Below are positions 11,839-15,034 of a DNA stretch of 35,029 nt, piece by piece. This DNA comes from Hyphomicrobiales bacterium (lineage in GTDB: Bacteria > Pseudomonadota > Alphaproteobacteria > Rhizobiales > Aestuariivirgaceae), in contig JAHFPK010000003.1 in the NCBI GenBank assembly GCA_023266715.1, positions 1 through 35,029 on the forward strand. The letters run 5' to 3'. Below the pieces are notes generated by a model. It saw only the letters and a list, made by a program, of their open reading frames with translations, searched no databases and was not told the origin of the DNA. The translations under genes and the position numbers were made by a program. Position 1 is the stretch's first letter. The number at the start of each line of letters is the position of its first letter.

Positions 11839-11874
11839 CTTTGCGATATCATCGCGTCAGGAGTGGCCTGGTTC

Positions 11875-14103
11875 ATGATGGATCAAAGCGTAGGTATTCT
11901 CGATCCCATCTCGCAAGAGATTTGGGACATGAAATATCGGTTCAAGGAGGCCGATGGCGCAATCCATGACCAGACCATTGAAGATACCTGGTGGCGGGTG
12001 GCCCGTGCCGTGGCCGCCGCCGAAGAACCATCCCTTCGGGAAACCTGGGCCGCTTCGTTTTATGAGGCTCTCTCGGATTTCCGGTTTTTGCCCGCCGGGC
12101 GAATTGTGGCGGGTGCCGGCACGAAGCGCAGCGTCACCCTGTTCAACTGCTTTGTCATGGGCGCCATTGATGATTCCATGGTGGGCATATTTGCTGGCCT
12201 GAAGGAGGCAGCCCTCACCCTGCAACAGGGCGGCGGAATCGGCCATGATTTTTCAACCCTCAGGCCCAAAGGAGCCCCGGTCAAAGGTGTGGGTGCCGAT
12301 GCTTCCGGACCCTTAAGTTTCATGGATGTGTGGGACGCCATGTGCCGCACCATCATGTCGGCAGGCGCCAGGCGCGGCGCCATGATGGGAACCATGCGCT
12401 GCGACCATCCAGATATAGAGGCTTTCATTGCGGCCAAGCGCGACCCCCTGCGCTTGCGCAATTTCAATTTGTCGGTGCTGGTGACGGACGCCTTCATGGC
12501 GGCGGTGAAGGCCGATGGACCCTGGACCCTGCGCTTTGCCGGTCAAGATTACCGCACTGTCTCCGCGCGCGGCTTGTGGGACCAGATCATGCAGTCAACC
12601 TATGACTACGCCGAACCCGGTGTCATTTTCATTGACCGCATCAACGCACAAAACAATCTCGGTTATTGCGAAGAGATTCACTGCACCAACCCCTGCGGTG
12701 AACAACCCTTGCCCAACTATGGCGCCTGTCTTCTGGGTTCGATCAATCTCACGCGTTTTGTAAAATATCCTTTTGAAGCCAATGCGAGCATCGATGAAGC
12801 GGCCTTGAGCAAGACAGTGGGTGTTGCCGTTCGCTTTTTGGATGATGTTGTCGAAATTTCAAATTATCCCCTCGAAGAGCAGGCGCAGGAAGCCCGCGCC
12901 AAGCGTCGTATTGGTTTGGGTGTTACCGGTCTCGCCGATGCCCTGGCCATGTGTGGCTTGCGCTATGGTTCAGGCCCTGCCGCAGAAGCCGCGAGCGCCT
13001 GGACAAAAATCGTGGAAGGTGCCGCTTATAAAATGAGTTCGAGGCTTGCCGCCGAAAAGGGTTCCTTTCCCCTCTTTGATGCGGAAGCCTATTTGAAAGG
13101 CGGCCACGCCGGCATACTTTCCAAAACCATTCGACAGGACATAAAATCGTCCGGTCTGCGCAATGGCCTGCTCACCTCGATTGCACCTACGGGGACCATT
13201 TCGCTTTTCGCCGGAAATGTTTCGAGCGGCATCGAACCCATTTTCAGTGTGAGTTATGAGCGTAAGGTAAGGCTCGCTGACAACAGCCGCATGACGCTGC
13301 GCGTGGATGACTATGCGGCACGGCTGTGGTGGCACCTCAAGGGCGCCGATACACCGCTGCCTCCCGCTTTTGTAACCGCCGATGATCTTACCCCCCATGA
13401 GCATCTGGTCATGCAGGCTGCCGTGCAAAAGCACATCGACAGTTCCATATCGAAAACCATCAACGTGCCTGAGGACTGCAACTTCGAAACCTTCAAGGAT
13501 GTCTATAGCGAGGCCTATGACCTGGGGTTGAAGGGTTGCACGACGTTCCGCCCCAACGAAGTGACGGGGTCAGTGCTTTCGACTGCCTCAGTGAGCGAAG
13601 ACAAGGACGTTACCGTCATGGAACGCCACCCCGCACTGAGCGGCATCACCTACAAATTGAAATGGCCTGAATCCAACCATGCCATCTACATCACCATGAA
13701 TGACATCATGAAGGACGGCAAACGCCGGCCTTTCGAAATATTCATTAATTCAAAAAACATGGAACATTTTGCCTGGACCGTGGCCCTGACCCGGATGATT
13801 TCAGCGGTCTTCCGGCGAGGCGGCGACGTTTCTTTTGTCGTTGAGGAATTGAAGGCGGTTTTCGATCCCCGCGGCGGGCAGTGGATGGAGGGCCATTACG
13901 TGCCGAGCCTGCTCGCAGCCATAGGCGAAATCATTGAAAAGCACATGATTGAAATTGGCTTTTTGGAACCCCGGCAGAAGGCTGATTTTTCCCTGACGGC
14001 AACCACCAAAAGGGCCTCCTGCCCGCACTGCGGTGAACTCGCCCTGGTTTTCCAGGAAGGCTGCGCCACCTGCCTCTCCTGTGGTTTTTCAAAATGCAGC
14101 TAA
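11875..14103 (+). CDS. Adenosylcobalamin-dependent (class II) ribonucleoside-diphosphate reductase
   Basis: RNR motifs NPCGEQPLPNYGACLLGSINLTRFV, RRIGLGVTGLADAL, SIAPTGTISLFAGNVSSGIEP; C-terminal CPHCGELALVFQEGCATCLSCGFSKCS. AGGAG precedes ATG 11875; the ORF-track GTG 11863 overlaps that SD. Confidence 0.95.
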   Translation: MMDQSVGILDPISQEIWDMKYRFKEADGAIHDQTIEDTWWRVARAVAAAEEPSLRETWAASFYEALSDFRFLPAGRIVAGAGTKRSVTLFNCFVMGAIDDSMVGIFAGLKEAALTLQQGGGIGHDFSTLRPKGAPVKGVGADASGPLSFMDVWDAMCRTIMSAGARRGAMMGTMRCDHPDIEAFIAAKRDPLRLRNFNLSVLVTDAFMAAVKADGPWTLRFAGQDYRTVSARGLWDQIMQSTYDYAEPGVIFIDRINAQNNLGYCEEIHCTNPCGEQPLPNYGACLLGSINLTRFVKYPFEANASIDEAALSKTVGVAVRFLDDVVEISNYPLEEQAQEARAKRRIGLGVTGLADALAMCGLRYGSGPAAEAASAWTKIVEGAAYKMSSRLAAEKGSFPLFDAEAYLKGGHAGILSKTIRQDIKSSGLRNGLLTSIAPTGTISLFAGNVSSGIEPIFSVSYERKVRLADNSRMTLRVDDYAARLWWHLKGADTPLPPAFVTADDLTPHEHLVMQAAVQKHIDSSISKTINVPEDCNFETFKDVYSEAYDLGLKGCTTFRPNEVTGSVLSTASVSEDKDVTVMERHPALSGITYKLKWPESNHAIYITMNDIMKDGKRRPFEIFINSKNMEHFAWTVALTRMISAVFRRGGDVSFVVEELKAVFDPRGGQWMEGHYVPSLLAAIGEIIEKHMIEIGFLEPRQKADFSLTATTKRASCPHCGELALVFQEGCATCLSCGFSKCS

Positions 14104-14129
14104 TTAGGGCTTGCATTTCATTTCAGCTT

Positions 14130-14144
14130 GTTCTACATTTGTTC
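14130..14144 (+). promoter_or_regulatory. LexA/SOS box GTTC-N7-GTTC
   Basis: Exact GTTC TACATTT GTTC direct repeat in the 43-bp gap upstream of ATG 14147; matches the known alphaproteobacterial LexA operator. Confidence 0.75.
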
Positions 14145-14146
14145 TC

Positions 14147-14515
14147 ATGCAGATACAAGGTTCCCCTCTCTCGATAGATTTCCCCGCCCACTTCGGTGAC
14201 AACGAGCGTTTCTGGTACTGGCGTGGGGTTTCTGGCAAGAAATACATTCATTCCATTTACGCGGCCGATGCCTGCCCGCCGCTTCCCGGCGCCATCTATG
14301 TAGCCGTACGGCGTATTGGCCATTTGCGAACCGCCGTTGCGGTTGGCAGGTTTTCCCCCTTCTGGGATGGCACATTTTCTGAATTCGCCGATATGACTGC
14401 CGATGAGATTCATGTTCATCTTCTGGCGCGCGATAATTCCGCGGCGGACGCTGTCCTGGGCGACCTCAAGGCGGCGTTCGGCGAAGCCAGTCAGGCTTTA
14501 AGTCTGGCCGCCTAG
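14147..14515 (+). CDS. Uncharacterised small protein, predicted SOS-regulated
   Basis: ATG 14147: MQIQGSPLSIDFPAHFGDNERFWYWRGVSGKKYIHSIYAADACPPLPGAIYVAVRRIGHLRTAVAVGRFSPFWDGTFSEFADMTADEIHVHLLARDNSAADAVLGDLKAAFGEASQALSLAA. No domain recognised; the ORF-track TTG at 14111 would read through the operator. Confidence 0.8.
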   Translation: MQIQGSPLSIDFPAHFGDNERFWYWRGVSGKKYIHSIYAADACPPLPGAIYVAVRRIGHLRTAVAVGRFSPFWDGTFSEFADMTADEIHVHLLARDNSAADAVLGDLKAAFGEASQALSLAA

Positions 14516-15034
14516 AAGTTTCAACTCGACGCCGAGGGCTTCAAGCGTTTTGTCGTGGATATTCATCTGCCGCAGATGTTCAACTGTGTTGGTGACATAA
14601 TCCCGGCAATGGCCCATTTTGCCCTCGCCCTGCAAAACATGCTTCAGAAGGCTTTTATGCGATAGCTTTCCGGCGTATTGGGCATGGGCCCGGTCAACCA
14701 CATAGGTCACCACCTCGATTTTCTTCTGGCTTTCCAAGATTTCTACTCCCCTGGTCATTTCCAGATAGACCATGCTGACCTGCTCGCGCTCGCGCAAATA
14801 CGCAAGCGTCGCCTCCCATTTTGCTGGTTCGATTTGGAAAGCAACCCCCACACACGAGCCACCGCGATCAAGGCCGAGCACAAGGCCGGGAAGTTCCTCC
14901 GTGCCACGGTGATGGAATGAATAGACACAAAGGCTGCGATGATAGCCCCTGATGCGCGCATGAGCTTGCGACACAAACTCAAAGCCCGGCCTCCACATTA
15001 GGGAACCGTAGCCAAATATCCACCGCTGCTGCAT
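14498..15034 (-). CDS. Gamma-glutamylcyclotransferase (ChaC-like)
   Basis: FGYGSLMWRPGFEF, RRSLCVYSFHHRGT-like segment, PGLVLGLDRGGSCVGVAFQI, YVTNTVEHL. Confidence 0.92.
   Translation of the reverse strand: MQQRWIFGYGSLMWRPGFEFVSQAHARIRGYHRSLCVYSFHHRGTEELPGLVLGLDRGGSCVGVAFQIEPAKWEATLAYLREREQVSMVYLEMTRGVEILESQKKIEVVTYVVDRAHAQYAGKLSHKSLLKHVLQGEGKMGHCRDYVTNTVEHLRQMNIHDKTLEALGVELKLLGGQT

Follow-up and report, generated by a model that had tools for sequence, protein, structure and literature searches.

We describe a small gene of a Hyphomicrobiales bacterium that is probably a single-gene SOS unit, transcribed into a leaderless mRNA and encoding a degenerate relative of the GIY-YIG nucleases; we favor this as the explanation of the locus as a whole. 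The gene lies in a 35,029-nt stretch of DNA, referred to below as the window, from a host that is closest, among named organisms, to Aestuariivirga sp. and other Hyphomicrobiales. The features with which we are concerned are as follows.

11863-14103, + strand: nrdJ, B12-dependent ribonucleotide reductase, upstream (TIGR02504, 569.7 bits)
14111-14116, + strand: putative -35 element TTGCAT, assigned from the sequence and from TTGACA in most relatives
14130-14144, + strand: LexA operator (SOS box) GTTC-TACATTT-GTTC, assigned from an exact match and from conservation
14134-14139, + strand: putative -10 element TACATT, inside the operator, with a 17-nt spacer from the -35 element
14147-14149, + strand: start codon ATG and predicted (leaderless) transcription start, the latter placed by spacing
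14147-14515, + strand: SOS gene, 122 aa, putative degenerate GIY-YIG-like product (alignments A1 and A3, bridge sequences, structure model)
14219-14236, + strand: WxGxSG signature, residues 25-30, N-terminal hairpin (family alignment)
14297-14347, + strand: putative GIY-YIG-equivalent hairpin, GAIYV (Tyr51) ... AVG (65-67) (alignment to L253, L252 and P0001; hhalign register)
14405-14419, + strand: ExHxH strand, Glu87, His89 and His91 (family alignment)
14456-14467, + strand: last helix, with Leu104 in the catalytic-Glu column and Asp106-Leu107 kept (aligned to IE[ST]D[LI] of the bridges)
14498-15034, - strand: ChaC-like gene, downstream and convergent (PF04752, 143 bits)

The segment from 14130 to 14144 reads GTTCTACATTTGTTC, and 2 nt (TC) separate it from the ATG at 14147; inspection of the sequence revealed no Shine-Dalgarno element between the box and this ATG. 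The putative -10 element is about 7-8 nt from the ATG, and the -35 element of the window gene, TTGCAT, is weaker than the TTGACA of its relatives. In each of these respects (position of the box, 2-nt gap, absence of a Shine-Dalgarno sequence, and a TTGCAT-N17-TACATT pair) the locus is as the original prediction had described it. An in-frame TTG at 14111, upstream of the ATG, would give a protein of 134 aa. It should be noted that GTTC-N7-GTTC occurs in the window at chance level (1 match vs 1.02 expected), and that its 52 matches genome-wide are fewer than the 134 obtained for a reversed control pattern. The significance ascribed to the operator therefore derives from its conservation and not from the frequency of the motif.

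When the upstream regions of orthologues were aligned, a comparison that had been suggested along with the original prediction, three features were seen to be kept through the genus and the family and in a large part of the order: the box, the interval separating it from the ATG, and a TTGACA in the -35 position. An exact GTTC-N7-GTTC was present in 52 of 53 family-level loci, the sole exception (L070) being near a contig end. The eight GTTC columns of the aligned family loci are invariant, at 2.0 bits each, and most of the 7 bases between the GTTC halves are also strongly conserved, the core being kept as TAT-N-TTT, whereas most bases beyond the -35 element are near random (<0.3 bits). This near-random flank controls for relatedness in the observed conservation of the operator. 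The best match to TTGACA, usually with 0-1 mismatch, ends 12-14 nt before the box in 46/52 family loci, a position which places the -10 element within the operator at a spacer of ~17 nt.

At the level of the order, about 110 of 149 loci carried the box in either orientation: a forward box lay within 300 nt in 104/149 and a reversed box in 11, three of the latter probably by chance. The same box was found in many loci of more distant families, and none was found in the subclades L074, L076-L080, L163-L165 and L167-L169. In one other family, f42 (L141, L142, L135, L182-L184), a reversed box, GAAC-N7-GAAC, lies between a TTGACG promoter and the start, just 3' of TTGACG-N17. GAAC-N7-GAAC was also seen ~200 nt upstream of three active-type bridge sequences (L249, L251 and L256, see below), where we judged it not to be promoter-associated. 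A second exact box is located 23-35 nt upstream of the first in L023, L025, L031, L035, L038 and L052, and this upstream copy, in several genus genomes, is possibly a tandem LexA operator.

GTTCN7GTTC is the published LexA motif of Caulobacter (PMC12700426), and the genome that contains the window has the elements expected of such a regulon: one lexA above cut-off, at C398, with a reversed-orientation box upstream, and boxes 51 nt upstream of ruvA (TIGR00084) and 15 nt upstream of radA (TIGR00416). Taken with the 52 box-bearing family loci, these observations bear out the earlier reading of the motif as a LexA operator, and we regard control of the window gene by LexA, as deduced from sequence comparison, as well supported and close to certain. 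The operator sequence and the boxes at ruvA, radA and lexA thus liken this system to the alphaproteobacterial LexA regulon as described for Caulobacter (PMC12700426). In contrast to that regulon as published, the operator of the window gene overlaps a promoter whose start is predicted to lie at the ATG, and we found no characterized counterpart of such an operator-at-ATG promoter in the literature searched. Elsewhere in the same genome (L088, C290:12046-12060), a box reading GTTCTTGTTATGTTC is located at the start of a ~380-aa ORF; the same sequence has been reported at two early SOS genes of Caulobacter (PMC12700426).

The arrangement of nrdJ, the small SOS gene and a convergent chaC (11863-15034 of the window) is conserved in many Hyphomicrobiales families. 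Among 149 homologous loci, some on contigs that end too early to tell, nrdJ was found upstream in 75 and chaC nearby downstream in 84. This neighborhood bears on two other ways of reading the locus. The first denies the gene an SOS role, taking GTTC-N7-GTTC to be a chance match and transcription to come by read-through from nrdJ; the frequency of the motif in the window and in the genome is what chance would give or lower, and 43 nt separate the end of nrdJ from the ATG. However, chance would hardly account for a near-perfectly conserved operator beside a near-random flank, and the box also occurs at loci for which no upstream nrdJ was found, so that we consider this reading extremely improbable. 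The other supposes that the product works with NrdJ, perhaps by modulating ribonucleotide reductase upon SOS induction so that dNTPs are supplied for repair. It draws on the position of nrdJ directly upstream in those 75 loci and on the nrdJ-like genes that precede some distant homologues from beyond the order (L133, L134, L136). Yet the small gene has a promoter of its own, many homologues lie away from nrdJ, and the convergent chaC is equally conserved, so that the linkage may reflect a stable neighborhood; we give a partnership with NrdJ only a small chance of being correct. A LexA-controlled gene with its own promoter is the reading that we carry forward.

We examined the spacing between the box and the initiator codon in relatives of the gene. 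The ATG follows the box by 1-2 nt in 43/52 family loci; of the first set of loci taken from other families, 9 have a box, and 7 of these show the same spacing. A gap of 1 nt and one of 2 nt set the box in different frames with respect to the ATG, and an in-frame stop closely precedes the ATG in 38 of 61 loci; these two observations argue that the conservation of the box is not that of coding sequence and that initiation at the TTG at 14111 is unlikely. Each of the 8 family-level relatives whose leader is 12-25 nt long has a Shine-Dalgarno-like sequence, a pattern that fits a transcription start at the edge of the box throughout; the one relative with a 7-nt leader has none. From these comparisons the mRNA of the window gene is very probably leaderless. 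A near-zero 5' UTR is an accepted class in the order: in Methylorubrum, 7% of mRNAs are leaderless (PMC9320726). The window gene is unlike the leaderless mRNAs of Hyphomicrobiales in general (PMC9320726) in that a LexA operator forms part of its layout, which is conserved over many genera.

GTTC-N7-GTTC-N1-2-ATG was present in 37/37 genus genomes searched, mostly at the orthologue of the window gene. In one genome of the genus (G013, L278:1497-2788, + strand), GTTC-N7-GTTC ends 1 nt before the ATG of a DinB-like gene, the product of which reads as DNA polymerase IV (DinB; IAHIDCDAFYAAVEKRD, motif assigned by eye). The leaderless SOS layout is therefore not unique to the window gene. Also, the variant GTTC[TGA]CTATA[TC]GTTC recurs 1-2 nt before an ATG at G003:C46, G012:C104, G021:C61, G022:C210 and G002:C53; possibly, these loci represent a second conserved leaderless SOS gene.

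Comparison of the window gene with three close relatives gave dN/dS values of 0.13-0.21, indicative of purifying selection, and on this basis we judge the gene to be real. A profile search found the protein family in 222 of 398 Hyphomicrobiales genomes (~56% of those sampled) and, in a class-wide draw, in 7/385 genomes, two of the 7 being from Hyphomicrobiales; it was found in no genome from outside Hyphomicrobiales among 399 drawn across the phylum. The family signature consists of RFWYWxGASGxxYIHSVY, CPPLPGAVYVxVRR, DEIHVHLLA and DL. Within it, the WxGxSG residues are nearly invariant (W in 132/133, G in 133/133, S in 130/133 and G in 129/134 sequences), as are those of ExHxH (E in 128/134, H in 130/134, H in 128/134).

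The window protein gave no Pfam match above cut-off and no NCBIfam match, and none of 52 family members matched Pfam or PHROGs at 0.01. A sub-threshold resemblance to the C2 domain (PF00168, E 0.062) was rejected as chance. Sequence searches of the PDB were empty or insignificant, a phage collection searched with the homologue L073 contained no homologue, and plasmid searches with L155 and L251 were empty; one plasmid search returned a single useful match, P0001, from Bradyrhizobium barranii. We found no description of the family or of its promoter in open-licence literature, and older LexA-regulon papers may mention the family. The earlier assertion that the product matches no family thus holds for Pfam, NCBIfam and PHROGs, but must be amended in that bridging sequences place it as a likely degenerate relative of GIY-YIG proteins.

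A GIY-YIG relationship was suggested by motif spacing. P0001, which is annotated as 'GIY-YIG nuclease family protein', scored 91.7 bits against the family HMM and 19.3 bits against an HMM made from GIY-YIG sequences of Hyphomicrobiales, and a search seeded with it recovered the window gene (E 6e-7) together with a graded series of paralogues. The bridges linking the family to GIY-YIG proteins include, in addition to P0001, L228/L254, L249, L251, L252, L253, L255 and L256, and over the domain, between the WxGxSG region and PPLN, several distinct ones are collinear. One of the bridges, L253, reads SGIYIF...LYIGEANDLSSRFQRH...GATHFHI...RIESDLIKNYYPPLN and has the canonical Tyr, Tyr, Arg and Glu; its match to PF01541 (E 0.0026) is below the curated cut-off. 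Neither the window protein nor any member of alignment A1 matched PF01541. An hhalign comparison with GIY-YIG gave E 0.0012 in the expected register when the bridges were included, and was not significant for A1.

The AlphaFold model of the window protein (model 2; pLDDT 82.6, pTM 0.76) was compared with known structures by means of Foldseek. The PDB match with by far the highest probability (0.82; TM 0.48) was 2LWF, which was fifth by E-value (E 0.52) in a search in which the E-values were above 0.1 and thus not significant. 2LWF appears in a published comparison as the GIY-YIG protein AtGRXS16, and the hallmark of GIY-YIG proteins is a hairpin followed by an Arg and a Glu (PMC9071465). A viral structure library yielded no significant match, the weak ones including a phage endonuclease and a GIY-YIG domain protein. 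In the aggregate, the window protein resembles the GIY-YIG superfamily (PF01541; UvrC N-domain, SLX1, AtGRXS16 N-domain 2LWF) in its predicted order of hairpin, strand and helix, in the register of the GAIY...VG hairpin, in the D-L of the last helix and in being linked to bridges with intact motifs. It differs in that there is no significant direct match, in that the YIG Tyr, Arg and Glu are no longer present in the window clade, and in that the family adds an N-terminal WxGxSG hairpin and the ExHxH strand.

Relative to the bridges, the window protein retains Tyr51 of GIY and has Ala65 in place of the YIG Tyr, Gly75 in place of the Arg and Leu104 in place of the metal-binding Glu. In the family at large, the Asp106 column is D in 132/134 sequences, the catalytic Glu survives at its old position in 41/149 and the canonical Arg in 17/149. 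The canonical Arg is lost in nearly all sequences and the Glu in most, those of the window clade included. In a family tree with the bridges as outgroup, poorly resolved owing to few columns and with many open forks, the outgroup showed the full YYRE state, as did L133 and L187, which branch early; L228 (YFRE: Tyr, Phe, Arg, Glu) carries the box. Raw counts linked loss of the box to retention of the Glu, an association that was unsupported once relatedness was considered on the tree.

These observations may be read in more than one way. The resemblance in fold could be convergent, the family being a novel alpha/beta one that P0001-like proteins resemble, as they do GIY-YIG proteins, by chance. 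Such a view would fit the lack of significance of the Foldseek E-values and of the direct profile tests; it is difficult to reconcile with several bridge sequences that are collinear from the WxGxSG region to PPLN, and we think it quite unlikely. Descent of the family from GIY-YIG nucleases, with a divergent GIY-YIG fold, is in our judgment highly likely from the sequences and the model taken together, no single direct test being significant. Given such descent, the protein might still be an active nuclease, with its metal site relocated to Glu87, His89, His91 and Asp106, and act as an SOS-induced incision enzyme in the manner of E. coli Cho, a UvrC-like GIY-YIG endonuclease that is inducible by the SOS response and active in incision. 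ExHxH and Asp106 are nearly invariant, the alternating residues of ExHxH would face one way on the predicted strand, and 41 of 149 relatives keep a Glu at the old position; Glu87, His89, His91 and Asp106 may make up a new metal site. Against retained activity stands the near-universal loss of the canonical Arg and the frequent loss of the Glu, in the window clade as well, and we regard an active nuclease as unlikely, if less so than convergence.

On balance, then, the sequence favors a window protein that is not a GIY-YIG nuclease, a view we hold with some reserve, and a role in binding DNA or a partner is a plausible suggestion that falls just short of an even chance. The protein would resemble Cho in being a GIY-YIG-type protein under LexA control, and would differ from that active incision nuclease in being without the catalytic residues. 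GIY-YIG proteins under SOS control have been described before, one being a GIY-YIG domain exonuclease in Bacteroidetes (PMC8565304).

We propose the following sequence of events. LexA bound to GTTC-N7-GTTC would cover the -10 element and repress the promoter, as its position and conservation suggest. Upon DNA damage, LexA would be cleaved and RNA polymerase would start at, or within ~2 nt of, the ATG, to yield a leaderless mRNA that would be translated from its 5' AUG, as indicated by the spacing and by the Shine-Dalgarno sequences in the longer leaders of relatives. The product would be a compact protein of GIY-YIG nuclease descent, no longer possessing the YIG tyrosine, the arginine of the helix or the metal-binding glutamate, but with the WxGxSG hairpin, the ExHxH strand and an invariant Asp either gained or kept. 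It would most likely no longer cut DNA as a GIY-YIG nuclease, and may bind damaged or branched DNA, or act as partner or regulator of another repair nuclease. More tentatively, at somewhat less than an even chance, we suggest an order-wide, LexA-controlled, leaderless pseudo-nuclease, in which a GIY-YIG fold has been turned into a damage sensor, a protector or a regulator of a repair nuclease, and in which the LexA operator fixes the 5' end of the mRNA.

The gene is apparently present in about half of the Hyphomicrobiales genomes sampled, in many of them behind an SOS box. It allows one to ask what a GIY-YIG domain does in the damage response after its active site has been lost, and whether SOS induction makes use of leaderless translation by design. 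The conserved spacing between box and ATG would also provide a convenient reporter for LexA-controlled leaderless expression.
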